Source: Roseospirillum parvum
GTDB taxonomy: Bacteria; Pseudomonadota; Alphaproteobacteria; Rhodospirillales; Rhodospirillaceae
Direction of reading: 5' to 3'
Length of the DNA: 64,000 nt
Assembly: GCF_900100455.1 (NCBI RefSeq)
Contig: NZ_FNCV01000006.1
Span: forward strand, 124,001-188,000
Below are positions 909 to 17,210 of this stretch, in pieces. The position numbers and the translations under genes were made by a program. Each line of letters starts with the position of its first letter. The stretch's first letter is position 1. Under the pieces are notes generated by a model. It was not told where the DNA came from and did no database searches. It saw only the letters and a program-made list of their open reading frames with translations.

Positions 909-1847
909 ATGGACACCCTGGCTGTCGTGATGGAACAACCCCAACGCCTGGCGCTGAGCCGGCTGGCGCTGGACCCGGCGGGGGATGCCGACGTCGTCGT
1001 CGACATCGCCTACAGCGGGATCAGCACCGGTACCGAGCGTCTGCTGTGGACCGGTCGCATGCCGCCGTTCCCGGGGCTGGGCTATCCGCTGGTGCCGGGC
1101 TACGAGTCGGTGGGGCGGATCAGCGCCGCCGGCCCGCAGTCGGGGCGTCAGGTCGGCGAGACGGTGTTCGTGCCCGGCGCCAAGTGCTACGGCGAGGTGC
1201 GCGGCCTGTTCGGCGGTGCCGCCGCCCGCGTGGTGGTGCCCGGGGCGCGGGTCCTGCCGCTGCCCGAGGGGCTGGAAGAGCAGGGGGTGCTGCTGGCCCT
1301 GGCCGCCACCGCCTGGCATGTCACCGGCGGCGATGCCGCCGCCCAGCCCGAGTTGATTGTCGGTCACGGGGTGCTGGGGCGTTTGTTGGCCCGCGTCGCC
1401 GTGGCCCTGGGCGCCAGCCCGACGGTGTGGGAAACCAACCCGGCCCGGGCCGAGGGCGCCGAGGGCTATCGGGTCGTTTCGCCGGCCGACGATGGGCGCA
1501 TGGACTACCACCGCATCTGCGACGTCAGCGGCGACAGCGGGCTGCTCGACAGCTTGATCGGGCGCCTCGCGCCGGGTGGCGAGGTGGTTCTTGCCGGCTT
1601 CTATGATCAGCCCTTGCATTTTGATTTCCCACCCGCTTTTATGCGCGAGGCCCGGATCCGGGTGGCCGCCGAGTTCCGGCCGGCCGACCTCACCGAGGTG
1701 ACCCGGATGATCGCCGAGGATCGACTCGATCTGTCCGGCTTGATCACCCACCGGGTCGCGGCGCCTGAAGCGGCCACGGCCTACGAAACCGCCTTCGGCG
1801 ACGCCGCCTGCCTGAAAATGGTTCTGGACTGGAGGACCTGTCAGTGA
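909..1847 (+). CDS. bchC: BchC, 3-hydroxyethyl bacteriochlorophyllide a dehydrogenase
   Basis: BchC oxidises the C3 hydroxyethyl group to acetyl in bacteriochlorophyll a synthesis. The 312-residue protein is a zinc-less medium-chain dehydrogenase type. An N-terminal GroES-like half carries SGISTGTERLLWTG and VPGYESVGRI, and a Rossmann half contains LIVGHGVLGRLLARV. Both are characteristic of BchC. I chose the ATG at 909 (MDTLAVV) because the frame upstream is low-complexity and lacks homology-like content. The stop overlaps the bchX start (GTGA). The gene sits behind the PpsR-type promoter and heads the bchCXYZ-puf transcript. Confidence 0.93.
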   Translation: MDTLAVVMEQPQRLALSRLALDPAGDADVVVDIAYSGISTGTERLLWTGRMPPFPGLGYPLVPGYESVGRISAAGPQSGRQVGETVFVPGAKCYGEVRGLFGGAAARVVVPGARVLPLPEGLEEQGVLLALAATAWHVTGGDAAAQPELIVGHGVLGRLLARVAVALGASPTVWETNPARAEGAEGYRVVSPADDGRMDYHRICDVSGDSGLLDSLIGRLAPGGEVVLAGFYDQPLHFDFPPAFMREARIRVAAEFRPADLTEVTRMIAEDRLDLSGLITHRVAAPEAATAYETAFGDAACLKMVLDWRTCQ

Positions 1848-2845
1848 CCGCGCCGTCGACCAGCAACACCGCCCCCGCGATGAGCACGACCGATGGCGCG
1901 ACCGACTCGGTGGCCGATCCGGTGGCTGACGTGACGCCCCGCGAGACCCAGATCATCGCCATCTACGGCAAGGGCGGCATCGGCAAGAGCTTCACCCTGG
2001 CCAACCTCAGCTACATGATGGCCCAGCAGGGCAAGCGTGTGCTGCTGATTGGCTGTGACCCCAAAAGCGACACCACCTCGCTGCTCTTCGGCGGCAAGGC
2101 CTGCCCGACCATCATCGAGACCTCGACCGCCCGCAAGCTGGCCGGCGAGGAGGTGAAGGTGAGCGACGTCTGCTTCAAGCGCGACGGCGTGTTCGCCATG
2201 GAACTGGGCGGCCCCGAGGTGGGGCGCGGCTGTGGCGGTCGGGGCATCATTCATGGTTTCGAGCTGCTCGAGAAGCTGGGCTTCCACGAGTGGGGTTTCG
2301 ACTACGTGCTGCTCGACTTCCTCGGCGACGTGGTTTGTGGCGGGTTCGGCTTGCCCATCGCCCGCGATATGTGTCAAAAGGTGATCGTCGTCGGGTCCAA
2401 CGACCTGCAGTCGCTTTACGTGGCCAACAACGTGTGTTCGGCGGTGGAGTACTTCCGCAAGCTGGGCGGCAACGTCGGTGTGGCCGGCATGGTGATCAAC
2501 AAGGACGACGGTACCGGGGAGGCCCAGGCCTTCGCAGCCAATGTGGGCATCCCGGTGCTGGCGGCCATTCCGGCCGACGAGGAGATCAGGCGCAAGAGCG
2601 CGGCCTATCAGATCGTCGGGGCGCCCGGTGGGGCGTGGGGTCCGCTGTTCGAGTCGCTGGCCAGCAACGTGGCCGAGGCTCCGCCGGTGGCGCCTTCGCC
2701 GCTCGACCAGGACGGCTTGCTCGGCCTTTTCAAGAGCGAGGCGGTCGGTCGCGACGTGGTGCTTGAGCCGGCGACGGAAGAGGATATGCTTGGTGGGCCC
2801 GCCCCGGCCAAGCCGACGCTGGAAGTGGTGTACGATACGGTCTGA
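1844..2845 (+). CDS. bchX: BchX, chlorophyllide reductase iron protein
   Basis: BchX is the NifH-like ATPase of chlorophyllide a reductase, passing electrons to BchYZ for reduction of ring B. The 333-residue product has the P-loop GKGGIGKS, and two cysteines that should hold the dimer-bridging 4Fe-4S cluster, in GRGCGGRG and DVVCGGFG. A variable N-terminus of about 30 Ser/Thr/Ala-rich residues precedes the fold. Translation starts at GTG 1844, inside the bchC stop, with GGAGGA about 7 nt upstream. A gap of 110-160 nt, depending on the bchY start, follows before bchY. Confidence 0.95.
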
Positions 2846-3007
2846 TCCGTTCCGCCTGGGGGGCCGAACGGGTCCCTCGGGAGGATTTGGGCGTTGCGCC
2901 GACGACAACGGCGGTGAAGCGACCCGGAAGAGGAAAAGATCGGAAGAGCTTCTTTGACGACCGCCCCGGGCACTCCGGGGCCGGCCGAAGAGCGAGGGGG
3001 AGTGGTC

Positions 3008-4477
3008 GTGTTCGACCCGCGTACAGACAGGAGTGGAGGGCAGGCCGCTGGCAGCAATGCCAGTTCCGCGCCTCGGTCTGCCTGCGGGGCGGAGATCGAC
3101 CAGGCCACCGGTCAGACCCTGGCCCGCTACGCCGCCGACTACCCCAAGGGACCCCACGATCAGCCGCAAAGCATGTGCCCGGCCTTCGGCGCGCTGCGCA
3201 TCGGCCTGCGCATGCGGCGCACGGCCAGCGTGCTGTCGGGCTCGGCCTGCTGCGTCTATGGGCTGTCGTTCACCTCGCATTTCTATGGGGCCCGCCGCCC
3301 GGTCGGCTACGTGCCCTTCAGCTCCGAGACCCTGGTCACCGGCAAGCTGTTCGAGGACATCCGCGAGGCGGTCGACAAGCTGGCCGACCCCGAGCAGTAC
3401 GACGCCGTGGTGGTGATCAACCTGTGCGTCCCCTCGGCCTCCGGCGTGCCGCTCCGGCTGCTGCCCCGGGAGATCAACGGGGTGCGCATCATCGGGCTGG
3501 ACATCCCCGGGTTCGGCGTGCCGACCCATGCCGAGGCCAAGGACATCCTGGCCGGTGCCATGCTGCGCTTCGCCCGGGGCGAGGCCGAGCAGGGCCCGGT
3601 GGCGGCGCCGCGTGGCGGCCCCAGCCAACAGCCGACGGTGACCCTGCTCGGCGAGATGTTCCCGGCCGATCCGATCACCATCGGCGCCCTGCTGGCGCCG
3701 ATGGGGCTGGCCGCCGGTCCGGTGGTGCCGACCCGCGAGTGGCGCGAGCTGTATGCCGCCCTGGACTGTGCGGTGGCGGCGGCGATCCATCCCTTCTACA
3801 CCGCCTCGGTGCGCGAGTTCGAAGTGGCCGGGCGTCCGGTGGTCGGCTCGGCCCCGGTGGGGGTCGATGGCACCGCCACCTGGCTGGCCGAGGTCGGCGA
3901 GCGCGCCGGCGTTGCCGCCGACAAGATCGCGGCGGCCCAGAACGCCGCCCTGCCGACCATTCGCGAGGCCCTGGCCAAGGCGCCGATCAAGGGGCGCATC
4001 ACCCTGTCGGGCTACGAAGGCTCGGAGCTGCTGGTTGCCCGCCTGCTCATCGAGAGCGGCGCCGAGGTGCCCTATGTGGGCACCGCCTGCCCGCGCACGC
4101 CGTGGGCCGAGGCCGATCTGGCGTGGCTGGAGAGCAAGGGCGTCGAGGTCAACTTCCGCGCCTCGCTGGAGCAGGATCTGGCGGCGGTCGAGGCGGTGAA
4201 GCCGGACCTCGCGGTGGGCACCACCCCGGTGGTGCAGGCGGCCAAGGAAAAGTCCCTTCCCGCCCTGTATTTCACCAATCTGATCTCGGCCCGCCCGCTG
4301 ATGGGTGCCGCCGGTGCCGGCTCGCTGGCCCAGGTGGTGAACGCGGCGATCGCCTCGAAGAGCCGCTTCGACACCCTGACCGAATTCTTCGCCGGGGTCG
4401 GCGAAGGCGCCAACACCGGCGTCTGGACGGCCACCGGGCAGGCCCCCTGGGCCGACGCGCAGGGGAGGGCGGCCTGA
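3008..4477 (+). CDS. bchY: BchY, chlorophyllide reductase subunit Y
   Basis: BchY is one half of the NifDK-like catalytic heterotetramer of chlorophyllide a reductase. Cluster-ligand region cysteines are visible in [11 protein letters not shown] and GSACCVYGL, plus an earlier SACGAE cysteine, as in other BchY proteins. The start is uncertain. GTG 3008 has GAGGGGGAG six nt upstream and gives 489 residues; TTG 2954 would give 507 and GTG 3002 is also possible. I prefer 3008 for its ribosome site. The stop overlaps the bchZ start as TGATG. It acts with BchX and BchZ in the cytoplasm. Confidence 0.93.
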
Positions 4478-5940
4478 TGTACGTCCTCGATCTGGATCGC
4501 GCCGGTGGCTATTGGGGTGCCGTCTATGTGTTCACGGCGGTGAAGGGCCTGCAGGTCATCATCGACGGCCCGGTGGGCTGCGAGAACCTGCCGGTGACTG
4601 CGGTGCTGCACTACACCGACGCCCTGCCGCCCCACGAGCTGCCGGTGGTGGTCACCGGCCTGGGCGAGGAAGAGCTGGGCCGCGACGGCACCGAAGGGGC
4701 CATGAAGCGGGCCCACCAGACCCTCGACCCCAAGCTGCCCAGTGTTGTCGTCACCGGCTCCATCGCCGAGATGATCGGTGGCGGGGTGACGCCGCAGGGC
4801 CGCAACATCCATCGCTTCCTGCCGCGCACCATCGACGAAGACCAGTGGCAGAGCGCCGACCGCGCCATGGCGTGGCTGTGGAACCAGTTCGGTGCCAAGA
4901 AGGGCAAGGCCGCGACCGCGACCCCGCGTCCCGAGGGCGCCAAGCCCCGGGTCAACATCCTGGGTCCGGCCTACGGCATGTTCAACCAGTGGTCCGATCT
5001 GGCCGAGGTGCGTCGCCTGATCGAGGGCATCGGCGCCGAGATCAACTTGGTCTTCCCGCTCGGCTGCGAGTTGACGCAGGTGGGCCGGTTGGCCGACGCC
5101 GAGGTGAACGTCTGCCTGTACCGCGAATACGGCCGCCTGCTCGCCGAGCAGCTCGGCAAGCCCTACCTGCAGGCGCCCATCGGCATCGACTCCACGACCC
5201 GCTTCCTGCGCGCCCTGGGCGAGCTGCTGGGCCTCGATCCCGAGCCCTTCATCGAGCAGGAAAAGCACACCACCCTGAAACCGGTGTGGGACCTGTGGCG
5301 CTCGGTGACCCAGGACTTCTTCGCCACCGCCAGCTTCGGCATCTCGGCCAACGAGACCTACGCCCGCGGGGTGAAGCACTTCCTGTCCGACGAGTTGGGC
5401 CTGCCGTGCAGCTTCGCCTTCGGCCGCTCGGCCGGGCAGAAGACCGACAACGAGGCGGTGCGGGCCAGCGTCCACGAAACCATGCCGCTGGTTCTCTTCG
5501 GCAGCTACAACGAGCGCATGTACCAGGCCGAGGCCGGCGGGCGCGGGGCTTACATCCCCGCCTCCTTCCCGGGCGCCGTGGTGCGCCGCCACACCGGCAC
5601 GCCGTTCATGGGCTACGCCGGGGCGACCTATCTGGTGCAGGAAGTGTGCAACGGGCTGTTCGACGCCCTGTTCCACATCCTGCCCCTGGGGACCGACCTG
5701 GACAAGGTGGACGCCACCCCCTCGCGCCTGCATCGGGAACTCCCGTGGGAGCCCGAGGCCCTGGCCGCGCTGGAGCGGTCGGTGGCGCGCCATCCGGTGG
5801 TCACCCGCATTTCCGCCGCCAAGCGGCTGCGCGACGCGGCCGAGCGGACGGCCCGAGCGGCCGGGGCGGAGCGTGTGGGGACCGCGCATGTGATCCAGTT
5901 GTTGAACGCCGAGGGCAAGGTGCCGGGAGGTGTCTCATGA
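4477..5940 (+). CDS. bchZ: BchZ, chlorophyllide reductase subunit Z
   Basis: BchZ is the second NifDK-like subunit of chlorophyllide a reductase (487 residues). It starts [20 protein letters not shown] and carries a cluster-region cysteine in [11 protein letters not shown]. The body is the nitrogenase-component fold, including [13 protein letters not shown] and [14 protein letters not shown]. The ATG overlaps the bchY stop (TGATG), with AGGGGAGGG just upstream, which suggests coupled translation. The end overlaps a possible small reading frame (ATGA at 5937). After it comes a structured gap leading into pufB. Confidence 0.95.
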
Positions 5941-6134
5941 CCTTCTCCTACCGCGCTACTGGGGCTTTCTTCAACGCCAACTTTTTCAGGGATTTCCGGG
6001 GCGCCGGGTGCGCCGCCGCGGGCGATGATCGCGCCGCGTCCCGGATCCGAGTGTCCGCCCATTGCCGTTGGGCGGGCAGCTTGCCGCGTCGGCTTTTCGA
6101 CGCGGTGTCACTCGGTCGCATCCGCGACCGTTAG
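5937..6134 (+). CDS. possible 65-residue protein at the pufQ position (doubtful)
   Basis: An open frame begins at the ATG that overlaps the bchZ stop (ATGA), preceded by GGGAGG, so it would be translationally coupled. The 65-residue product is Arg/Ala-rich, begins [12 protein letters not shown] and has no membrane segment. PufQ, which occupies this place in Rhodobacter, has a transmembrane helix, so I do not call this pufQ. The second half of the frame runs through a series of stem-loops that explain much of its composition. It may be a real leader peptide or chance. Confidence 0.25.
6017..6130 (+). other. stem-loop array between bchZ and pufB
   Basis: Four hairpins follow one another: a near-palindrome at 6017-6038 with two 5-bp arms; CCGCCCA/TGGGCGG (6055-6061 with 6069-6075); CCGCGTCG/CGACGCGG (6084-6091 with 6098-6105); and CGGTCGC/GCGACCG (6113-6119 with 6124-6130). 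The last ends 27 nt before the pufB ATG. None has a T-run, so they are not intrinsic terminators. In other purple bacteria hairpins at puf gene borders set RNA processing and stability. A similar role is inferred here, to separate rare bch mRNA from abundant pufBA mRNA. Confidence 0.55.
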
Positions 6135-6157
6135 GGCAAACTTAGGAGGTAATAGAC

Positions 6158-6364
6158 ATGGCTACCACCGAGAACGTGACCTCCAGCACCGGTCTGACCG
6201 AGGCCGAGGCGAAGGAGTTCCATGCTGTCTACTCGCAGAGCGCCGCCGGCTTCCTGGCCGTCTGCGCCGTTGCTCACGTCCTGGCTTGGATGTGGCGTCC
6301 GTTCTGGCCGGGTGCCGAGGGCTGGGTCATGGACACCGCCCAGAACCTGACCTTCCTGGCCTAA
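6158..6364 (+). CDS. pufB: PufB, LH1 antenna beta polypeptide
   Basis: PufB is the 68-residue beta subunit of the core light-harvesting complex, a single-span inner-membrane protein that binds bacteriochlorophyll with PufA. The N-terminal half is polar (LTEAEAKEFHAVYSQS). The membrane helix contains the AVAHVLAW segment whose His40 should ligate the pigment magnesium, and a WRPFWPG motif follows at the periplasmic side. The Shine-Dalgarno TTAGGAGGT is nearly perfect, fitting the high expression needed for about 16 copies per reaction centre. The length is a little above the usual 50-60 residues because both ends are extended. Confidence 0.96.
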   Translation: MATTENVTSSTGLTEAEAKEFHAVYSQSAAGFLAVCAVAHVLAWMWRPFWPGAEGWVMDTAQNLTFLA

Positions 6365-6425
6365 GACTCGGATTGCTTCCCTGCAATCTGCTCTAGCCTG
6401 AGTTTCCTGTCCAAAGGAGGACACT

Positions 6426-6629
6426 ATGACTTTCTCGACCCACAAGGTTTGGCTGATGTTCGACCCGCGCAGCACGCTGGTCGCCCTGGCTGCGTTCCTG
6501 GTCGTCCTGGCCCTGCTGATCCACTTCCTGTGCCTCGGCCATGACCGCTTCAACTGGCTCGAAGGCAACCCGGCCGCTACCAAGGCCGCGGCTGCTGCCG
6601 TGACCATGCCGGTGAACCCGGTGGCCTAA
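6426..6629 (+). CDS. pufA: PufA, LH1 antenna alpha polypeptide
   Basis: PufA is the 67-residue alpha subunit of LH1. [11 protein letters not shown] is the amphipathic N-terminal segment typical of alpha chains. The hydrophobic helix ends LLIHFLCL, where His33 is the expected bacteriochlorophyll ligand, followed by RFNWLEG as in Rhodospirillum rubrum. The C-terminal Ala/Pro tail may be trimmed, as happens in other species. AAAGGAGG precedes the ATG. A large stable hairpin lies between this gene and pufL. Confidence 0.96.
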
Positions 6630-6666
6630 AGGCCGTTCCTGGCGAACAGTCGTTTCGCCGGCCGAA

Positions 6667-6707
6667 GGCAGTGGGCGCCCGGTCATTTGCCCGGGTCGCC
6701 CACTGCC
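6667..6707 (+). other. pufA-pufL intercistronic hairpin
   Basis: GGCAGTGGGCG (6667-6677) pairs perfectly with CGCCCACTGCC (6697-6707). Inside it CCCGG (6678-6682) pairs with CCGGG (6691-6695), with one bulged T and an 8-nt loop. The 16-bp stem has no T-run. In Rhodobacter a hairpin at this place protects the 3' end of pufBA mRNA and gives the excess of LH1 over reaction-centre message. The same role is inferred here. Confidence 0.8.
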
Positions 6708-6759
6708 GAAGGCTTGGTGATCCACCGTTGCCATGACTCCTGATCGGAGGGCCCACACA

Positions 6760-7587
6760 ATGGCCATGCTCAGTTTTGAGAGAAAGTACCGCGTTCGAGG
6801 CGGTTCGCTGATTGGGGGGGATCTTTTTGACTTCTGGGTGGGGCCGTTCTATGTCGGCTTCTTCGGAGTCACCACCCTCTTCTTCACCTTTGTTGGTGTT
6901 GCTTTGATTGCCTACGGCTGGGTCATGGATCCGAGTGATCCGACCGTCTGGCAGCTCAGCATCGCCCCGCCCGACCTCAGCTACGGTCTGGGCTTCGCGC
7001 CGCTCATGGAGGGCGGCCTTTGGCAGATCATCACCATCTGTGCCGTTGGCGCCTTCGTTTCCTGGGCGCTGCGCGAGGTGGAAATCTGCCGCAAGCTTGG
7101 CATCGGCTTCCATGTGCCGTTTGCCTTCTCGTTCGCCATCGCCGCCTACGTCGCGCTCACCGTGGTTCGCCCGATGCTGCTCGGCGCCTGGGGGCATGGT
7201 TTCCCCTACGGCATCATGAGCCACCTGGACTGGGTGTCGAACGTCGGCTACCAGTTCCTTCACTTCCATTACAATCCTGGCCACATGCTGGGTATCACCT
7301 TCTTCTTCACCACCGCGCTGGCCCTGGCCATGCACGGCGGCCTGATCCTGTCGGCGGCCAACCCCGGCAAGGGCGAGAAGGTGAAAGGGCCGGAGCACGA
7401 GAACACCTTCTTCCGGGACACCGTCGGCTACTCGATCGGTACCCTGGGGATCCACCGTCTCGGCCTGATCCTGGCGCTGAGTGCCGTCTTCTGGAGCATC
7501 GTCTGCATGCTCATCAGCGGCCCGGTGTGGACCAAGGGCTGGCCCGAGTGGTGGAACTGGTGGTACGAACTGCCGATTTGGGCCTAA
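6760..7587 (+). CDS. pufL: PufL, photosynthetic reaction centre L subunit
   Basis: PufL is a 275-residue, five-helix membrane subunit holding bacteriochlorophylls, bacteriopheophytin and the quinones of the reaction centre. It begins [20 protein letters not shown], typical of L subunits. Pigment and iron ligands are recognisable: the histidine of [14 protein letters not shown] with the special-pair histidine, and the two iron histidines in AMHGG and GIHRLG. I use the ATG at 6760, which has GGAGG 10 nt upstream, rather than an in-frame ATG at 6733. It is followed 18 nt later by pufM. Confidence 0.97.
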
Positions 7588-7605
7588 GCCAAGGGGGACC
7601 ACTCA

Positions 7606-8577
7606 ATGTCGGAATATCAGAACATCTTCACCTCCGTGCAGGTGCGTAGCGCACCCCACGAGAGTGTGGCCCTCCCGCGGGGCGCCTGGCCGCGCAGCAA
7701 GGCGTCGACCCTGTCCTACTGGCTCGGCAAGATCGGTGACGCCCAGATCGGGCCCATCTATCTTGGCGCCACGGGCATCGCGTCGCTCATCTTCGGCTTC
7801 GTGGCCATCGAGATCATCGGTCTCAACATGCTGGCCTCGGTCGACTGGAACCCGGTGGAGTTCCTCCGCCAGTTCCCGTGGCTGGCCCTTGAGCCGCCCG
7901 GACCCGAGCATGGCCTGCGTGCCATGCCGCCGCTGAATGAAGGCGGTTGGTGGGTCATGGCCGGCTTCTTCCTGACTGCCTCCATCCTGTTGTGGTGGGT
8001 CCGGACCTGGCAGCGCGCCAAGGATCTGGGCATGGGGACCCACATCGCGTGGGCCTTCGCCTCGGCGATCTTCTTCTATCTGGTTCTCGGCTTCATCCGT
8101 CCGGTGATGCTGGGCAGCTGGAGCGAGGCGCCGCCGTTCGGCATCTTCCCCCACCTGGATTGGACCGCCGCGTTCTCCATCCGGTACGGGAACCTGTACT
8201 ACAACCCGTTCCACATGCTCTCGATCGCGTTCCTCTACGGTTCGGCCCTGATCTTCGCCATGCACGGCGCGACCATCCTGTCGGTGAGCCGACTGGGCGG
8301 CGACCGTGAGGTCGAGCAGATCACCGATCGTGGTACCGCGGCCGAGCGTGCCGCCCTCTTCTGGCGCTGGACCATGGGCTTCAATGCCACCATGGAATCC
8401 ATCCACCGCTGGGGCTGGTGGTGTGCCGTGTTCGTCACCCTGACCGCCGGCCTGGGCATCCTGCTCAGCGGCACCGTGGTTGACAACTGGTACCTGTGGG
8501 CGGTCAAGCACGGTGTGGCTCCGACCTATCCCGACGTCTTCCCCGGCGTCACGGATCCCGCGGCGATTGGAGGCTAG
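7606..8577 (+). CDS. pufM: PufM, photosynthetic reaction centre M subunit
   Basis: PufM is the 323-residue M subunit that pairs with PufL and binds the primary quinone. Visible key sites are YYNPFHML with the special-pair histidine, FLYGSA with the tyrosine near the special pair, the iron histidines in AMHGA and SIHRWGWW, the iron-ligand glutamate in DREVEQI, and [11 protein letters not shown] with the tryptophan packing against QA. AAGGGGG precedes the ATG. Its stop lies two nt before pufC. It is slightly longer than Rhodobacter PufM at the C-terminus, as is usual in species with a bound cytochrome. Confidence 0.97.
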
Positions 8578-8579
8578 CA

Positions 8580-9668
8580 ATGAGCAACGACTTCAACTCC
8601 CGCTTCGTGTCGCTGATGGCGCGCAAGGGCCGCACCAGCCCCCGGGCTCCGGTCTGGGTTGGTGGCTGGTTCGTGGTTGGCCTGATCACCATCGGTCTGC
8701 TGACCGTGATGATGGGGCCGGCCGGCACCTATACCCAGTCGGGCTATCGCGGCCTGATGATGGGCGAGGTGGACATGGCCGACGAGCTGGCCGACGACAT
8801 GGCCGCGCCCAAGAACCAGGTCCCCGCCGCCTCCGAGCGTTTCCCCGACGAGGGGCCGCTGGCTGGCGAGGTCTACGTGAACGTTCCGGTGCTGGCGCAC
8901 CTGAGCGCTGACAACTTCAACCGCCTGATGGTCGCCATCACCGAGTGGGTGTCGCCGGAAGAGGGCTGTAACTACTGCCACGATCCCGACGACCTCACCG
9001 CCGAGCGGCCGTACACCAAGATCGTCTCGCGCCGTATGCTCGAGATGGTCATGTACCTGAACAGCCAGTGGGGCGACCACGTTGCTCCGTCGGGCGTCAC
9101 CTGCTGGACCTGCCACCGCGGCAATCCGGTTCCGGAGAACATCTGGTTCAAGAATGACGATGCCGATGGCGGTTCGGGCGCGCTGGGCAACACCTTCGGT
9201 CAGAACGCGGCGTCCTGGGATGCCGGTCTGTCCGCGCTGCCCAACGACGTGATGGAAGCCTATCTGTTGGACGACCAGAACCTGCGAATCACCCCGACCA
9301 ACGATCTGCCGATGAACGGCGTGACCCAGATCGGGACCAAGCAGGCCGAGTGGACCTACGGCATGATGTTCCACATCTCCAAGGGTCTGGGTGTGAACTG
9401 CACCTACTGTCACAACAGCCAGTCGTTCCGCGTCTGGGAGATGAGCCCGCCGGCGCGTGTCACCGCCTGGCACGGCATCCAGATGACCCGGGCCATCAAC
9501 GTCGACTTCCTCGACCCGCTGCAGCCGGAATACCCGGCCAACCGGCTGGGTCCGGAGGGCGACGCCCCGAAGGCCAACTGTGCCACTTGTCACCAGGGCG
9601 CGTTCAAGCCGATGTACGGCGAGAATGTCATCGACGACTATCCGTCGCTGGCCGCCCCGGGCGAGTAA
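8580..9668 (+). CDS. pufC: PufC, tetraheme cytochrome subunit of the reaction centre
   Basis: PufC sits on the periplasmic face of the reaction centre and re-reduces the photo-oxidised special pair. The 362-residue protein has four CXXCH heme sites (CNYCH, CWTCH, CTYCH, CATCH). An N-terminal hydrophobic segment near residues 25-45 precedes the heme domain. No cysteine occurs before the first heme site, so the lipid anchor known from Blastochloris is absent, and an uncleaved membrane helix is the likely anchor. The ATG at 8580 follows the pufM stop with GGAGG close upstream. Rhodospirillum rubrum and Rhodobacter lack this gene. Confidence 0.96.
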   Translation: MSNDFNSRFVSLMARKGRTSPRAPVWVGGWFVVGLITIGLLTVMMGPAGTYTQSGYRGLMMGEVDMADELADDMAAPKNQVPAASERFPDEGPLAGEVYVNVPVLAHLSADNFNRLMVAITEWVSPEEGCNYCHDPDDLTAERPYTKIVSRRMLEMVMYLNSQWGDHVAPSGVTCWTCHRGNPVPENIWFKNDDADGGSGALGNTFGQNAASWDAGLSALPNDVMEAYLLDDQNLRITPTNDLPMNGVTQIGTKQAEWTYGMMFHISKGLGVNCTYCHNSQSFRVWEMSPPARVTAWHGIQMTRAINVDFLDPLQPEYPANRLGPEGDAPKANCATCHQGAFKPMYGENVIDDYPSLAAPGE

Positions 9669-10876: not shown

Positions 10877-11439
10877 AGGCCGGAGGCATTCCAGGGTGAC
10901 ATAGCCTGGGGCTTTGCCTGGAAGAGCCGACCGGAAGGCGGCGGCGACGCGGCGGCCGCAGCGTAGCCGGGTGCCAGCCCACCCTGACGGATCGACGTCA
11001 GACCCCGCGCGCGCTCAAAATATCAAACATTTGCTGAGTCGACTCGCTCGCTGATTCGGTTGGAGGGCATCCTTTGAGGCATTGCTCCGCGCCCAGCGCA
11101 ACCTTCGCGGCGATGCAAAAAACGGCCGAAAGTTTGATTGAGATTCAACCTACTGGGTTATTCTTGCCCTTTAAGTGGTGGTTTTGGTATTGCATCTGGC
11201 ACGGCGCGCGGTGAATGCTTTTTTGCCGTCGGTTTCCCTATGGCGCCGAACCGGTTCTTGGCAGCGGCGCCTTGTGGGCGCGGTGGCGGGTGGCCCGCCG
11301 ATCTGCTCAAGGGAAACGGCCAAGGGAAATGGTCAAGGGAAACGGCCAAGGGAAACAGCCCACGGCGGAAGGTGTCACCGGCTTTTCGGGGCCGGTGCCG
11401 GGAACCACGGGGGGGCACGTGAAGTGAGAGGTTGCAGCC
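10877..11439. other. 563-nt intergenic region, no convincing gene
   Basis: This stretch holds patches less GC-rich than the surroundings (around 11015-11045 and 11115-11185), which suggest promoter DNA for the receiver gene at 11440, although I cannot fix a good -35/-10 pair. A 13-bp tandem repeat lies at 11308-11359. Short open frames crossing the area translate to Pro/Arg/Gly-rich sequence interrupted by the repeat, so I do not annotate them. Confidence 0.5.
11308..11359. repeat. 13-bp tandem repeat, four copies
   Basis: The unit CAAGGGAAACGGC occurs at 11308-11320, as CAAGGGAAATGGT at 11321-11333, exactly again at 11334-11346, and as CAAGGGAAACAGC at 11347-11359. It lies about 80 nt before the receiver gene. 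A related sequence, AAGGGAAATGGTGACT, is duplicated near 39843. Confidence 0.9.
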
Positions 11440-11907
11440 ATGCCCAATATCCTGATTGCCGACGACGACTCTGACCTGAGCCTGGTGATCGCGCGCGCGC
11501 TGGAGCGGGCGGGCTGGAGTTGCCGCACGGTGGATAACGGGGTCGACGCCCTGGACGAGCTTGCGGACGACAGCCTTGATCTGTTGCTGACCGACCTTGC
11601 CATGCCCCGCAAAAGCGGGCTCGACGTGATCATGGGAGCCAAGGAAGGGCGGCCCGACCTGCCGGTGGTGGCCATGTCCGGTGCCGGCCGGCCGGTGTCG
11701 GCGGCGCTGGACATCGCGCGGCGCAGCGGCGCCGACGCGGTCATCGCCAAGCCGTTCAAGCTGTCGAGCCTGACCGCCCTGGTCGAGCACGTCCTGGCCG
11801 GAACCGGCACGCCCGACCCGGATCAGCCGCTGGACGTGGCGACCAACCCGGAAGACGTGGCGGTGATCGTGCCGCCCAACCTGTTGCTGGCCAAGGTGCG
11901 CGGTTGA
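11440..11907 (+). CDS. single-domain response regulator
   Basis: A 155-residue CheY-like receiver. The acidic pocket is IADDDSD (residues 6-12), the phospho-acceptor Asp52 lies in LLLTDLAMP, and the conserved lysine is in IAKPF. No output domain follows; the last 35 residues are a Pro/Asp/Val-rich tail. Such proteins act by phosphotransfer or by binding partners. The neighbouring hybrid kinase 260 nt downstream is the obvious candidate partner. A GAGAGG sequence lies about 12 nt before the ATG. Confidence 0.85.
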   Translation: MPNILIADDDSDLSLVIARALERAGWSCRTVDNGVDALDELADDSLDLLLTDLAMPRKSGLDVIMGAKEGRPDLPVVAMSGAGRPVSAALDIARRSGADAVIAKPFKLSSLTALVEHVLAGTGTPDPDQPLDVATNPEDVAVIVPPNLLLAKVRG

Positions 11908-12166
11908 TGCCGGGGCAGGGCAATTTTTGAGGGCCTGAAGAATCACGCCGCAACCGAAAGAGACGAAGGGAGGGCATGTCACCCAGGGTTGATCGGGCCG
12001 GAAGTCCTGGCCCAACCCCGGGACGAGGAACACAGGGTCATGCCGCCGGGTTGGCGGTCGGCGTCGCGGTCAAACCTTGGGGGGCAGTCCGCGGCTGATC
12101 GACGCCAAACCCAACGCCCCTTGGGGCGGCGCGCGGCGGTGAGAAGGTACCGAGGAGTTGCAAGCC

Positions 12167-15100
12167 ATGTGGCAGTCCGTTCAGCCCCCCATCGCCGCCC
12201 TGGCGCGACGCCTGAGGTCGCTCCGGCCGGGCTTCGGCATGAAGAGCGCGCTGTTCTTCCTGCTCTACTCGGCGGCGATCATCGGCGCCATGGCGGTGAC
12301 GGCGCACCTCGACCAGCGGCGGCAGGCGGAAGAGCTGACCGAACAGCGGCTCAAGGGCCTGGCGGTGGCCCTGGAAGCGCGCATCCAGGCCTTCCTGCGC
12401 GGCTCCCGCCACCAGATGCTGAGCCTCATCGACTCCTACCCCCTGCGGCGCTATGCCAACGCCCTGGAAGAGGGCAGCCCGGGCGAGCTGGAGTTCGCCA
12501 CCGCCCAGGTCGCCGATCTGCTGCGGGCCCATCTGGCGGCCCACGCCATGCACTATCAGGCCCGGCTGATCGACGCCCGCAGTGGCTGGGAGCTGATGCG
12601 CCTGGACAAGGACCGCTACACCGACGCCATCCACTCGGCCGAGGACCTGCAGGACAAGTCGCACCGCGACTATTTCCAGGAGCTCAAGGGGGGCGGCGCG
12701 GACCGCTTCTACGTCTCGGCGGTGAACCTCAACCGCGAGCACGGGGCGGTGGAGACGCCGCATCGCCCCACCCTCAGGCTGGCCGCCCGGCTGCGCGGCA
12801 AAAGCGACCGTCCGGTGGCCTTCCTGGTCATCAACATCTCCTTCGCCAGCCTGATGTCGGACCTGCACCGCATCCTCGGGGATTCCCACGTCCCCCTGGT
12901 CCTCGACTCGCTGACCCGCTACCTGGTGCACCCCGACCGCCGGCGGGCCTTCGCCTTCGAGTTCGGGCGGGTCGAGAGTCTGGCCGTGGATGCCCCGGAG
13001 GTGGCGGCGCGGCTGCTCGGGCCCCATGCGCCGGGCATGCCGTACGGCGAGGTGTTCACCCCCGATCTGCCGATCAGGGGCGAGCCCTACATGGCGGCGC
13101 TGCGGGTGATGCCGATGCAGGGCGGCGACAACCGGCGGACCTTGATTGTCGGCGCCGCGATGCCGGCGCGCCAGGTCTATCCCAGCCTGCTCGGTTCGGT
13201 GACCCACAGCCGCGAGGCTCTGGTGGTGCTGCTGCTGGTGGCCCTGTCGGCGACCTTCCTGGTCGCCCGGGCCCGGGCCCACGGTCAGCGGGTGGCGGCC
13301 ACCCACGCCAAGCTGAAAGGCGTGCTGGAGACGGCGCAGGACGGCATCGTCATCACCGATGGCGCCGGGCGCATCGAGGAGGCCAACCCGGCGGCCGGCC
13401 GACTGTTCGGCGTGAAAGGCGCGGAGCTGGTTGGCAAGCCGCTCGATGCGCTGGTTCCGGCGCTGGCGGCGGCCGATCCCAGCCGCTTCCGCAAAGGGGT
13501 CTGGCAGCCTTCCGAGGCAAAGGAGGCGGCCGACCCCGACGATCACGCCATCGAGATGGCGCGGCGCGCCGACGGCCGCGAGTTTCCGGTCCACGTCTCG
13601 CTGGCCGAGCTGCCCGACCCGAGGCAGCGCCGGCTGGCCGCCATCCTGCACGATCAGAGCGACATGGTGGCCGCCCGTCAGGCCGCGGTGGCGGCCAATC
13701 TGGCCAAGTCGCAGTTCCTCACCGCGATGAGTCACGAGCTGCGCACGCCGCTCAACGCGGTGCTGCTGTACAGCCAGATGGTGGCCGAGGACCTGGCCGA
13801 CAGCGCCAGCCCGGAGGTGCTGGCCGACCTGGAGCGCATCCATCAGGCGGGGGCCCATCTGATGGACCTGATCAACGGGGTGCTTGATCTGGCGCGCATC
13901 GAGACCGGTCGCATGGAGCTGAACATGGCGACCTTCGATCTGGCCGAGATGGTCGCCGACACGGTCAGTCTGGCCGGCCCGGTGCTGCGCCAGAACGGCA
14001 ACCAGCTGCTGGTCGACGTGGCGGACGACATGGGGATGATCGTGGGCGACCGGGTCAAGCTGCGCCAGTGCATGATCAACCTGATCTCCAACGCCGCCAA
14101 GTTCACCGAGCAGGGCGCCGTGACCATCGCCGGCTGGCGTCAGCACGACATGGTGTTCCTGTCGGTCGCCGACACCGGCATCGGCATGGACGAGGAGCAA
14201 CTGGGCCGGGTGTTCAATGTCTTCGAGCAGGCCAGCACCCAGATCAAGGCCAAGTATGGCGGCTCCGGCGTCGGGTTGGCCCTGACCCGCCAGTTCATCG
14301 ACCTGATGGGCGGGCAGATCGAGGTCTCCTCGCAACTGGGCGAGGGAAGCTGCTTCACCATCAGCCTGCCGGCGGTGGCGGTTTCGACAAGTCCGCCGTC
14401 GCCCGATCAGGTGAACGTCGGCCAGCGCATGAAGGTGCTGGTGGTTGATGACGATCCGGCCATGCGCGCCCTGCTGGGCAGTCAGCTTGAACCCAATCTC
14501 TATGAGGTGGTTGGGCTGCCCGGCGGTCAGCAGGCGTTGGAATACCTGGCCAGCCATGCCGTCGACCTGATCCTGATGGACATCCTGATGCCGGAGATGG
14601 ACGGCTGGGACACCCTGCGCGTGCTGAAGGCCGAGCCGCGCACCGCCAACATTCCGGTGCTGGTGGTGTCGATCGTCGGCGACCGCGAGATTTCCGAGGT
14701 CCAGGGGGCCTGCGGGCATGTGCGCAAGCCGTTCCGGGCCGACGACATCGCCGCCGCCATCGAGCGCTGCCAGGCCTGCCGCATGGGGCGCAGCGTGGTC
14801 ATTGTCGAGGACGACCTGAACATGCGCGCCGCCCTGGTCCGCGCCGTCGAGCGGGTGGGTCTGCCGGCGGTCGCCTTCTTCGGGGTCGATGACGCGCTTT
14901 ACCATGTGCGCCTGCGCCGTCCCGGGGCCATCCTGCTCGACCTGCAAATGGCGCGCGGCCCCAGCGGCTTCGACATGCTCGACGAGTTGGCCAACGAGCC
15001 GGCGCTGGCCGAGGTTCCGGTGTTCGTCATCACCGGCGTCACCTTGAGCGTCGACCAGCGGGCCGCGCTGGCCGAGCGCTGTCAGATGGTGCTGGAGAAA

Positions 15101-15244
15101 GGCGCCTTCGATCTCGACGGCCTGATGGCCCACCTGTTGGAGTTCATCTCCGGGGAGTGCCCCAATGATCGGCCCGGCGCGTCCGACCGGGTGCCGCCGG
15201 CGGCCCCGCCGGCTCTACGGATGGTTGGAGGAGAACAGCCATGA
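12167..15244 (+). CDS. membrane hybrid histidine kinase with two receivers
   Basis: A sensor kinase of about 1025 residues. From the N-terminus: membrane helix ~28-47; a periplasmic region ~50-345 that looks like a double-Cache sensor; second helix ~349-367; PAS ~380-500; HisKA with MSHELRTPLN and phospho-His523; HATPase_c with NLISNAAKF, DTGIGM and GSGVGLAL; receiver 1 with Asp805 in LMDILMP; receiver 2 with Asp925 in LLDLQMARG. I prefer ATG 12167, which has GAGGAG upstream, over TTG 12158. The stop overlaps the next receiver gene. It is the likely input of the cluster; the signal is unknown. Confidence 0.9.
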   Translation: MWQSVQPPIAALARRLRSLRPGFGMKSALFFLLYSAAIIGAMAVTAHLDQRRQAEELTEQRLKGLAVALEARIQAFLRGSRHQMLSLIDSYPLRRYANALEEGSPGELEFATAQVADLLRAHLAAHAMHYQARLIDARSGWELMRLDKDRYTDAIHSAEDLQDKSHRDYFQELKGGGADRFYVSAVNLNREHGAVETPHRPTLRLAARLRGKSDRPVAFLVINISFASLMSDLHRILGDSHVPLVLDSLTRYLVHPDRRRAFAFEFGRVESLAVDAPEVAARLLGPHAPGMPYGEVFTPDLPIRGEPYMAALRVMPMQGGDNRRTLIVGAAMPARQVYPSLLGSVTHSREALVVLLLVALSATFLVARARAHGQRVAATHAKLKGVLETAQDGIVITDGAGRIEEANPAAGRLFGVKGAELVGKPLDALVPALAAADPSRFRKGVWQPSEAKEAADPDDHAIEMARRADGREFPVHVSLAELPDPRQRRLAAILHDQSDMVAARQAAVAANLAKSQFLTAMSHELRTPLNAVLLYSQMVAEDLADSASPEVLADLERIHQAGAHLMDLINGVLDLARIETGRMELNMATFDLAEMVADTVSLAGPVLRQNGNQLLVDVADDMGMIVGDRVKLRQCMINLISNAAKFTEQGAVTIAGWRQHDMVFLSVADTGIGMDEEQLGRVFNVFEQASTQIKAKYGGSGVGLALTRQFIDLMGGQIEVSSQLGEGSCFTISLPAVAVSTSPPSPDQVNVGQRMKVLVVDDDPAMRALLGSQLEPNLYEVVGLPGGQQALEYLASHAVDLILMDILMPEMDGWDTLRVLKAEPRTANIPVLVVSIVGDREISEVQGACGHVRKPFRADDIAAAIERCQACRMGRSVVIVEDDLNMRAALVRAVERVGLPAVAFFGVDDALYHVRLRRPGAILLDLQMARGPSGFDMLDELANEPALAEVPVFVITGVTLSVDQRAALAERCQMVLEKGAFDLDGLMAHLLEFISGECPNDRPGASDRVPPAAPPALRMVGGEQP

Positions 15245-15606
15245 CCCGCGTCCTGCTGGTCGAGGACAACGCGATGAACGCCGATGCCCTGGGCCGTCTT
15301 TTGACCCGACGGGGGGCGACCGTCCACCACGTGGCCGAGGGGCTGGCGGTGTCGGCGGCGGCCCGCGCGTTCGCCCCCCAGGTGATCCTGATGGACATCG
15401 GCCTGCCCGACATCGATGGCCTGGAGGTGACCCGCCGGCTGAAGGCCGATCCCGAGTTGTCGGCCATCCCGGTGATCGCCCTGACCGCCCATGCCACCGC
15501 CCAGGACGAGCAACTGGCCCGTGACGCCGGGTGCTGCGACTACGCCACCAAGCCGGTCGACGTGAAGGGGTTGCAGGAAAAAATCGGCCGCCTCGTTGGT
15601 GCCTGA
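15241..15606 (+). CDS. DivK-like single-domain response regulator
   Basis: A 121-residue receiver with VEDN at residues 8-11, phospho-Asp52 in LMDIGLP and the lysine in ATKPVD. The sequence ILMDIGLPDIDGLEVTRRLK resembles the DivK/CheY-like class often tied to hybrid kinases. The ATG overlaps the kinase stop (ATGA), and TTGGAGGAG is placed well for initiation, so the two are translationally coupled. It probably takes phosphate from the upstream kinase and passes it on. Confidence 0.88.
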   Translation: MTRVLLVEDNAMNADALGRLLTRRGATVHHVAEGLAVSAAARAFAPQVILMDIGLPDIDGLEVTRRLKADPELSAIPVIALTAHATAQDEQLARDAGCCDYATKPVDVKGLQEKIGRLVGA

Positions 15607-15675: not shown

Positions 15676-16830
15676 ATGAACGACCTGCACCTGCCGCGCG
15701 CCCTGATCGTCGACGACGACCCGGACGCCCGGGCCATCCTGCACCGGGTGTGCACCGGGGCTGGCTGGCGTTCGCTGACCCTGGAAAGCCCCGAACTGGC
15801 CATCAAGGCCATCGGCGAGTTCCGGCCCGATGTCATCTTCTGGGACCTGACCTATCCCGATGGCGACGGGGTGGCCCAGTTGACCCGGGTCGCCCAGATC
15901 ATCCCCAAGGCCAACGTGGTGCTGGTCAGCGGCTGCGAGCCCGAGGTGCTGCGCTCGGCCCAGCGGGTCGGGGCGCGCATGGGGGTGCGCATGCACGAGC
16001 CGATCGAAAAGCCGGTCTCGCTGGCCACCGTGCGGGCCCTGCTCGCCCAGTTGCGCGAAGGCGACGCCGTGCTCACCCCGGTTGATCTCAGGGCCGCCCT
16101 CAACGACGGGCAAATCTCCATGGCCTATCAGCCCAAGGTGCGGCTGAGCGACGGCGCCTACGTGGGGGTCGAGGCGCTGGGCCGCTGGACCCGGTCCGAT
16201 GGCGTGGCCATTCCGCCCTCGGTGTTCATCCCGGTGGTCGAGATGGACCGCCAGTTGGCCCGCGACCTGCTGCTCTTCGGCCTCGACCGGGCGAGCACCG
16301 AGGCCGAGGCCTGGCGGCGGCCGGGCACCCGCTGTGCCGTCAACCTGTCGGCCACCTGCCTCAACGACCTGACCCTGCCGGACTACGTGCTGAAGGCCGC
16401 CGTCGGGCGCGACGCCCGGGCCAGCGACTTCGTGCTGGAGGTCACCGAAACCGCCTCGCTGGGCGAGCCCGACCGTTCGGAAGAGGTGCTCACCCGGTTG
16501 CGCATCCAGGGCTATCAGGTGTCGCTGGACGACTTCGGCACCGGCCACAGCTCGCTGTTGCACCTGCAGCGCATGCCGTTCAGCGAGCTGAAGATCGACC
16601 GCCAGTTCGTGGTCGCCATGGGCGAGGATCGGCGGGCCGAGCAGATCGTCCACATGATGGTCAGCCTGGGCAAGGCACTGGGCGTGACCACGGTCGCCGA
16701 GGGCGTCGAGACCAGCGCCCAGATCGCCCACCTGACCGAGTTGGGCTGCGACGTGATCCAGGGCTATTTCATCGCCCGTCCCATGTCGGCCGACCAGTGC
16801 GCGGCCTGGATCGAGGACTACAAGCCATGA
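15676..16830 (+). CDS. REC-EAL cyclic di-GMP phosphodiesterase
   Basis: A 384-residue protein with an N-terminal receiver (VDDDPD; phospho-Asp57 in IFWDLTYPDGDG; lysine in EKPVS) and an EAL domain from about residue 145. The EAL catalytic set is complete: EALGRW, the asparagine of NLSA, the second glutamate in EVTET, DDFGTGHSS, the lysine of LKIDRQF, AEGVE and QGYF. Active cyclic di-GMP hydrolysis under phosphorylation control is therefore expected. I use ATG 15676 with GGAGAAAGG upstream instead of an ATG at 15610. The stop overlaps the next gene (ATGA). Confidence 0.9.
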   Translation: MNDLHLPRALIVDDDPDARAILHRVCTGAGWRSLTLESPELAIKAIGEFRPDVIFWDLTYPDGDGVAQLTRVAQIIPKANVVLVSGCEPEVLRSAQRVGARMGVRMHEPIEKPVSLATVRALLAQLREGDAVLTPVDLRAALNDGQISMAYQPKVRLSDGAYVGVEALGRWTRSDGVAIPPSVFIPVVEMDRQLARDLLLFGLDRASTEAEAWRRPGTRCAVNLSATCLNDLTLPDYVLKAAVGRDARASDFVLEVTETASLGEPDRSEEVLTRLRIQGYQVSLDDFGTGHSSLLHLQRMPFSELKIDRQFVVAMGEDRRAEQIVHMMVSLGKALGVTTVAEGVETSAQIAHLTELGCDVIQGYFIARPMSADQCAAWIEDYKP

Positions 16831-17210
16831 GCCAACCCAGTGCTCCGGCGCCGACGCCGCCCGTCACCGGCATGGGCGGTCTGCTCGACGAGGTCCACAA
16901 CCTGGATCGCCTCATCGTGCACCTGGGCGCCCTGCTGGCCACCACCACCCTGGCCGCCGATGTCGAACGCATGCAGGTGCGGGCCCGCGACCTGAGCCCG
17001 CTGCTGGCCGAGTACCTTGAGGCGGCGGACGACGACCGCCGCCGCCTGCGCCACGATACGCTGAACGTGCTGGGCGCGGTGGCCGGCTATGCCGAGCTGA
17101 TCGGCGACGACGTTCGCGAAGGCATGGCCCACGATCTGACCGAGCGCATCCAGGGCGGCGCCCATGCCCTGTCGGCCATGTTGGCGGCCGACCGCGAGGC
17201 GGCGGGCTGA
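16827..17210 (+). CDS. H-box helical-hairpin protein without ATPase domain
   Basis: A 127-residue protein whose start overlaps the REC-EAL stop (ATGA). After a Pro/Ala-rich N-terminus and a helical segment, it has RRRLRHDTLNVLGAVAGYAE, which matches the H-box pattern of HisKA dimerisation domains (histidine, acidic residue, then asparagine), with His76 as possible phospho-site, and a second helix after it. No N, G1 or G2 box follows, so there is no kinase domain. A phosphotransfer or dimerisation role serving the adjacent receivers is inferred. I know no named family for it. Confidence 0.65.
   Translation: MSQPSAPAPTPPVTGMGGLLDEVHNLDRLIVHLGALLATTTLAADVERMQVRARDLSPLLAEYLEAADDDRRRLRHDTLNVLGAVAGYAELIGDDVREGMAHDLTERIQGGAHALSAMLAADREAAG

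Follow-up and report, generated by a model that had tools for sequence, protein, structure and literature searches.

The window analysed here, a 64-kb stretch of Roseospirillum parvum DNA, contains an operon that encodes, in this order, a single-domain receiver (REC1), a hybrid histidine kinase ending in two receivers (REC-REC), a second single-domain receiver (REC2), a REC-EAL response regulator and, as the last gene, a small protein with a histidine kinase-type H-box, referred to below as the H-box protein (Table 1). The kinase start is assumed to be the first TTG. In the REC-EAL protein, the motifs EAL and DDFGTG and the acidic residues of the receiver are present and, as judged by eye, key acidic residues and motifs are retained in the operon's receivers and EAL domain in general. 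The H-box ORF begins with the ATG at 16827, which overlaps the REC-EAL stop codon (TGA, 16828-16830) as ATGA, and ends with the stop codon at 17208-17210. A REC1 gene upstream of the kinase is also kept in loci L012-L015 and L104. Between the preceding gene and REC1 are four near-identical tandem copies (11310-11358) of the 12-base unit aagggaaacggcc, one of which reads aagggaaatggtc. Further upstream (1844-9668), the translations read as apparent bacteriochlorophyll reductase subunits and as apparent L, M and tetrahaem cytochrome subunits of a photosynthetic reaction centre, so the organism is probably a purple phototroph.

Table 1. Operon genes and parts of the H-box protein, with positions in the window.
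Feature	Position	Strand	Basis
REC1, single-domain receiver, first gene of the operon	11440..11907	+	Pfam
Hybrid histidine kinase: sensor (PF21623-like), PAS, HisKA, HATPase, REC, REC	12158..15244	+	Pfam
REC2, single-domain receiver, candidate relay intermediate	15241..15606	+	Pfam
REC-EAL response regulator with c-di-GMP phosphodiesterase motifs, presumed to receive the phosphate	15676..16830	+	Pfam Response_reg, EAL
Stand-alone H-box protein (probable tandem DHp), 127 aa, candidate histidine phosphotransferase	16827..17210	+	
N-terminal helical hairpin (residues 16-36, 43-65), presumed dead DHp repeat	16872..17021	+	AF2 helices and dead-hairpin HMM
C-terminal helical hairpin (residues 68-95, 100-126), live DHp with H-box	17028..17204	+	AF2 helices and hhalign
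His76, presumed phospho-acceptor	17052..17054	+	invariant in 7/7 members

His76 lies in the HisKA-like H-box RHDTLNVLGAVAGYAELI (surroundings RRRLRHDTLNVLGAVAGYAELIGDD) and is followed by Asp77 at H+1, Asn80 at H+4 and Ala84 at H+8, so that the hallmarks of HisKA (the phospho-acceptor histidine, the acidic residue at H+1 and Asn at H+4) are all present, and these are invariant in all seven members of the family described below. Pfam HisKA (PF00512) aligns to residues 74-118 only and scores below threshold (15.4 bits against a cut-off of 26.9), as does SPOB_a (PF14689; 13.4 against 28.1). No HATPase domain was matched by Pfam in the H-box protein, whose chain stops at residue 127. The Hpt model (PF01627) gave no match at E up to 1 for this protein or up to 10 for six members, and the HxLKG motif was not found in its sequence. 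Likewise, ChpT (PF10090) matched neither the H-box protein nor six members in Pfam searches, and there are no residues past the second hairpin. Reading the window in all six frames gives the conserved H-box motif a single time, and the protein has no close paralogue in its own genome.

AlphaFold (AF2), run on the monomer with a six-row alignment, predicted a single four-helix bundle built from the two hairpins in Table 1 (pLDDT 87.6, pTM 0.78). Searches with this model were uninformative: Foldseek returned only common up-down-up-down bundles (best E 0.048), the best VIA match (Z 14.5) is within the range usual for helical bundles, and the lack of HPt and kinase chains from the fold list is no evidence either way. 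A first-pass annotation, made from the letters of the window, had described an H-box protein without an ATPase domain that consists of a single DHp hairpin. The former description is confirmed by the His76-Asp77 pair and the lack of a HATPase match; as for the latter, the C-terminal hairpin with its H-box was correctly recognized, but it is not the only one, since residues 16-65 are predicted to form another helical hairpin ahead of it. The two checks that the annotation had proposed on fold and profiles gave, respectively, a predicted helical bundle within one chain, and a weak HisKA match below cut-off with no match to Hpt or PF10090.

Among the genomes searched, close relatives of the H-box protein are largely confined to the genus Roseospira. 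A single-sequence search of 98 related genomes found relatives mostly within one genus, and an alignment-based search of 317 genomes of the order recovered all six Roseospira-genus genomes (one of them a bin called Rhodospira) at E <=9.7e-26 and otherwise nothing below 5e-8. In all six, the same operon closes with the H-box gene, which overlaps the REC-EAL gene or directly adjoins it. Orthologues of the REC-EAL protein (365-398 bits) occur in exactly these six genomes and R. parvum, with the next REC-EALs at about 250 bits or less, and each of the seven genomes has the H-box gene directly downstream. Residues R75, H76, D77, N80, L82, G83, A84, E90, L91 and I92 (RHDxxNxLGA...ELI) are invariant in these seven proteins. 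No relatives were found when genome contigs were scanned with the single protein, or in a plasmid search; scanning the contigs with the alignment yielded three Roseospira-type genomes and two proteins of the fused type discussed below. Weak matches in L017, L018 and L019 were dropped as apparently unrelated or wrong-frame ORFs.

Besides these orthologues, weaker matches were found across Alphaproteobacteria, in which the same module is N-terminal to a receiver and an output domain. The output is a guanylate cyclase-type domain (Guanylate_cyc) in L023, L024, L031/L122, L127, L128, L129, L131 and L133, SpoIIE in L126 and L130, and PAS-GGDEF in L125 and L134. As the fused homologues reach the HisKA cut-off, with up to 58 bits, the hairpin of the H-box protein is, by transitive homology, a true DHp relative. 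The H-box family and the fused module align over both halves at an hhalign E of 1.9e-15, which comes mostly from the live half, and the live halves by themselves align at E 1e-15. The fused-type model matches all seven members of the H-box family, and it also picks up ordinary HisKA kinases. The fused set was selected with an RHD motif filter, so conservation of RHD in it is partly due to selection; without the filter there were three further full-length matches, of which two keep the histidine (HHE, GHD) and the third is ordinary-kinase-like with Asn in place of His. In the cyclase group, the H-box-REC-cyclase protein of L023 (7770-9311) is almost identical to its L024 counterpart, and the Klebsiella pneumoniae label of its contig, a MAG, is probably wrong (mis-binned). 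A separate small ORF (L123:6242-6658; 139 aa) with the H-box FAHDIKSALGGVVGYSQLL reaches 31 bits with HisKA, above the Pfam cut-off, and lacks an ATPase domain; the 12.5 kb examined around it revealed no gene for a receiver or a kinase.

The fused relatives also suggest how the module originated. The segment before their H-box, e.g., IRQEFSAPAAAIVDYARMLIADAGAFGLDHMAEDLGRIRTAGENLNALIASLLDP in L129, reads as a DHp hairpin in its own right, in which Gln takes the position of the histidine, a replacement that is frequent in their N-terminal hairpins. In an alignment of 19 sequences, this dead hairpin matches the live one at an hhalign E of 1.7e-9 over 59 gapless columns. An earlier, smaller alignment of 11 sequences had given E 4.7e-9, against 0.037 for a reversed control and 0.097-0.94 for 19 column shuffles. 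Further, the dead hairpin matches the DHp of the partner kinases at E 8.3e-12, with Gln opposite His. A tandem-DHp origin of the module is therefore well supported for the fused relatives by sequence comparison, and the module resembles a half-dead DHp pair within a single chain, i.e., two fused copies of a DHp hairpin, the first degenerate and the second with the H-box. For the R. parvum protein the same origin is likely. Its N-terminal half scores 12.9 bits with the dead-hairpin HMM, a value reached by none of 338 shuffles (maximum 5.8), and the N-terminal hairpin of the H-box family matches the dead hairpins at a weak hhalign E of 2.8e-4 and the live ones at 0.046; the N-terminal half is clearly above shuffles in only two of the seven members. 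With two DHp hairpins in tandem, a four-helix bundle of the kind that arises in ChpT and Spo0B by dimerisation would form inside one chain.

For phosphate to get from a receiver-bearing hybrid kinase to a receiver on another protein, a histidine carrier is required (PMC9981736, PMC5898713). Pfam matched no Hpt domain in the R. parvum hybrid kinase, and the H-box protein is thus the sole candidate that the operon supplies for an additional phosphotransfer histidine. The same genome encodes seven Hpt domains above the cut-off and one ChpT, which could be alternative partners of this kinase. A kinase-core tree groups the kinases of the seven H-box operons in one clade (100/100). HPt-bearing kinases located beside other REC-EALs, plus two further kinases, separate from the rest at 99/99, and on the H-box side of this branch are the fused-type kinases, whose branching order the tree does not resolve. 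The kinase core is 40-47% identical to those of fused-type loci, compared with 32-36% to kinases of the HPt-type clade. All five hybrid kinases that we tested beside other REC-EAL genes have a C-terminal Hpt domain, these five having been chosen for carrying an HPt-like motif. As some REC-EAL-linked hybrid kinases elsewhere lack HPt, this contrast is an argument rather than a rule.

From these comparisons, the most likely function of the H-box protein is phosphotransfer from the kinase, through its receivers or the single REC, to REC-EAL. We consider it quite probable that all parts of this reading hold together, namely that the protein is a phosphorelay histidine phosphotransferase acting through His76, that it is a single-chain tandem DHp, and that it lies on the path from the kinase to REC-EAL; phosphate transfer itself, and its direction, we infer. 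In this relay, the hybrid kinase would autophosphorylate and pass the phosphate to a receiver, either one of its own or REC2, from which His76 would take it; the phosphate would then be transferred to the receiver of REC-EAL, and possibly to REC1 as well, altering c-di-GMP breakdown.

Relays of this kind have precedents. ChpT, which has a four-helix DHp bundle, links a hybrid kinase to response regulators (PMC3433190, PMC9981736), and its H-box, HDL..PxGAI.NGxEL, resembles RHDLMNALGAIDNYAELI of the H-box protein, although the live hairpin matches the ChpT DHp only weakly (hhalign E 5e-4, probability 32%). Ala84 falls at H+8, the position of the sole DHp/REC contact that is reported to be kept strictly between CckA (H322, A330) and ChpT/CtrA (PMC9981736). 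Unlike ChpT, a homodimer whose chains each have a single hairpin and a degenerate ATPase-like domain (PMC3433190), the H-box protein has two hairpins in one chain and no ATPase-like domain. Spo0B, the Bacillus sporulation phosphotransferase, likewise provides a histidine relay between receivers, and SPOB_a is matched below threshold in four of six members of the H-box family; Spo0B, however, is described as a dimeric degenerate kinase (PMC5898713), while the H-box protein has no remnant of a second domain and has a second hairpin in the chain instead. In the general stress response of Sphingomonas, the kinase-derived phosphotransferases PhyT/PhyP transfer phosphate from SdrG, a single-domain receiver, to PhyR (PMC5898713), and by analogy we propose this as one possible wiring for the H-box protein. 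PhyT/PhyP differ in being predicted to be membrane-anchored, in their HRxxN-type H-box, and in keeping a degenerate ATPase domain. An HPt domain is also a one-chain four-helix bundle, likely with the same job, but the histidine of the H-box protein is in a DHp-type H-box.

Other roles for a DHp-like bundle must be weighed against a relay. It might instead act as a receiver phosphatase that resets the signal by dephosphorylating REC-EAL~P (or REC1/REC2) via Asn80, which is invariant in all seven members and corresponds to the Thr/Asn at H+4 that HisKA requires only for phosphatase activity (PMC3510030). Such an activity would not need both His76 and Asp77 to be invariant, the acid at H+1 is specifically a kinase-side residue (PMC3510030), and the fused relatives vary H+4 (T, N or A) yet retain the histidine, so we regard a pure phosphatase as rather unlikely; by analogy, Asn80 may add phosphatase activity to a phosphotransferase. 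Direct phosphorylation of the histidine in trans by the kinase's ATPase domain, with the H-box protein as an extra DHp of the kinase, would fit the retention of Asp77, since HisKA autophosphorylation needs an acidic residue at H+1 (PMC3510030). ChpT homologues share the same HD, however, even though the domain of ChpT itself does not phosphorylate it from ATP (PMC3433190), so the acid at H+1 proves little; as a DHp and two receivers are already part of the kinase, we find this option very hard to credit.

The first-pass annotation had offered three readings: a shuttle between receivers, a heterodimer partner or decoy that inhibits the kinase, and a scaffold for REC-EAL. The latter two, in which the protein would regulate without being phosphorylated, by pairing with the kinase DHp or by keeping REC-EAL near the kinase, agree with the conserved operon, and the closeness of the dead hairpin of the fused relatives to the partner kinase DHp makes DHp binding conceivable. 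Neither explains the invariant RHDxxN, and with the bundle formed inside one chain, as predicted, no DHp dimer face would be available; we therefore judge a non-phosphorylated regulator improbable. The shuttle is the best supported of the three: a helical bundle is predicted and His76, whose conservation in homologues the annotation had proposed to check, is invariant in 7/7.

The phosphotransferase reading may extend to the loci of the fused proteins, where the module is homologous and a similar hybrid kinase and single REC adjoin it; in R. parvum it is instead encoded by its own gene, with REC-EAL as the output, while in those loci it is fused to the output receiver. In six distant genomes (L122 and L184-L188), the fused-type protein shares its locus with a two-REC hybrid kinase, in which no HPt motif was found, and a single REC. 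REC2 is 56-63% identical to its counterparts in the six Roseospira-genus operons and 44-53% to those in fused-type cassettes. A second stand-alone module was found in L194 (family f135, distant), in the gene order hybrid kinase, REC, module, and no output gene was detected adjoining it. Kinase, single REC and module are thus kept together across loci with different outputs, and it is the output part that changes. We lean slightly towards the joint view that these loci represent an undescribed alphaproteobacterial cassette, made of a two-REC hybrid kinase, a single REC and a single-chain, half-dead tandem DHp with interchangeable EAL, GGDEF, nucleotide cyclase or SpoIIE phosphatase outputs, and that the module is a third histidine-phosphotransfer architecture besides HPt domains and dimeric pseudo-kinases. 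No description of the module or cassette was found in the open-licence literature, which is no proof of novelty. If this view is correct, a dimeric kinase domain became a one-chain phosphate carrier via duplication and loss of one histidine. It would also give a name to a relay element that is overlooked by domain databases or listed there just as a partial match to HisKA, and would tie many alphaproteobacterial second-messenger enzymes, whose HisKA remnant has had no explanation, to a particular hybrid kinase and receiver. Two 1.2 Mb one-contig genomes with very few HisKA candidates (G413, with locus L188, and G687, with locus L132) nevertheless encode a module-REC-SpoIIE-type protein, which in G413 adjoins a two-REC hybrid kinase and a single REC.
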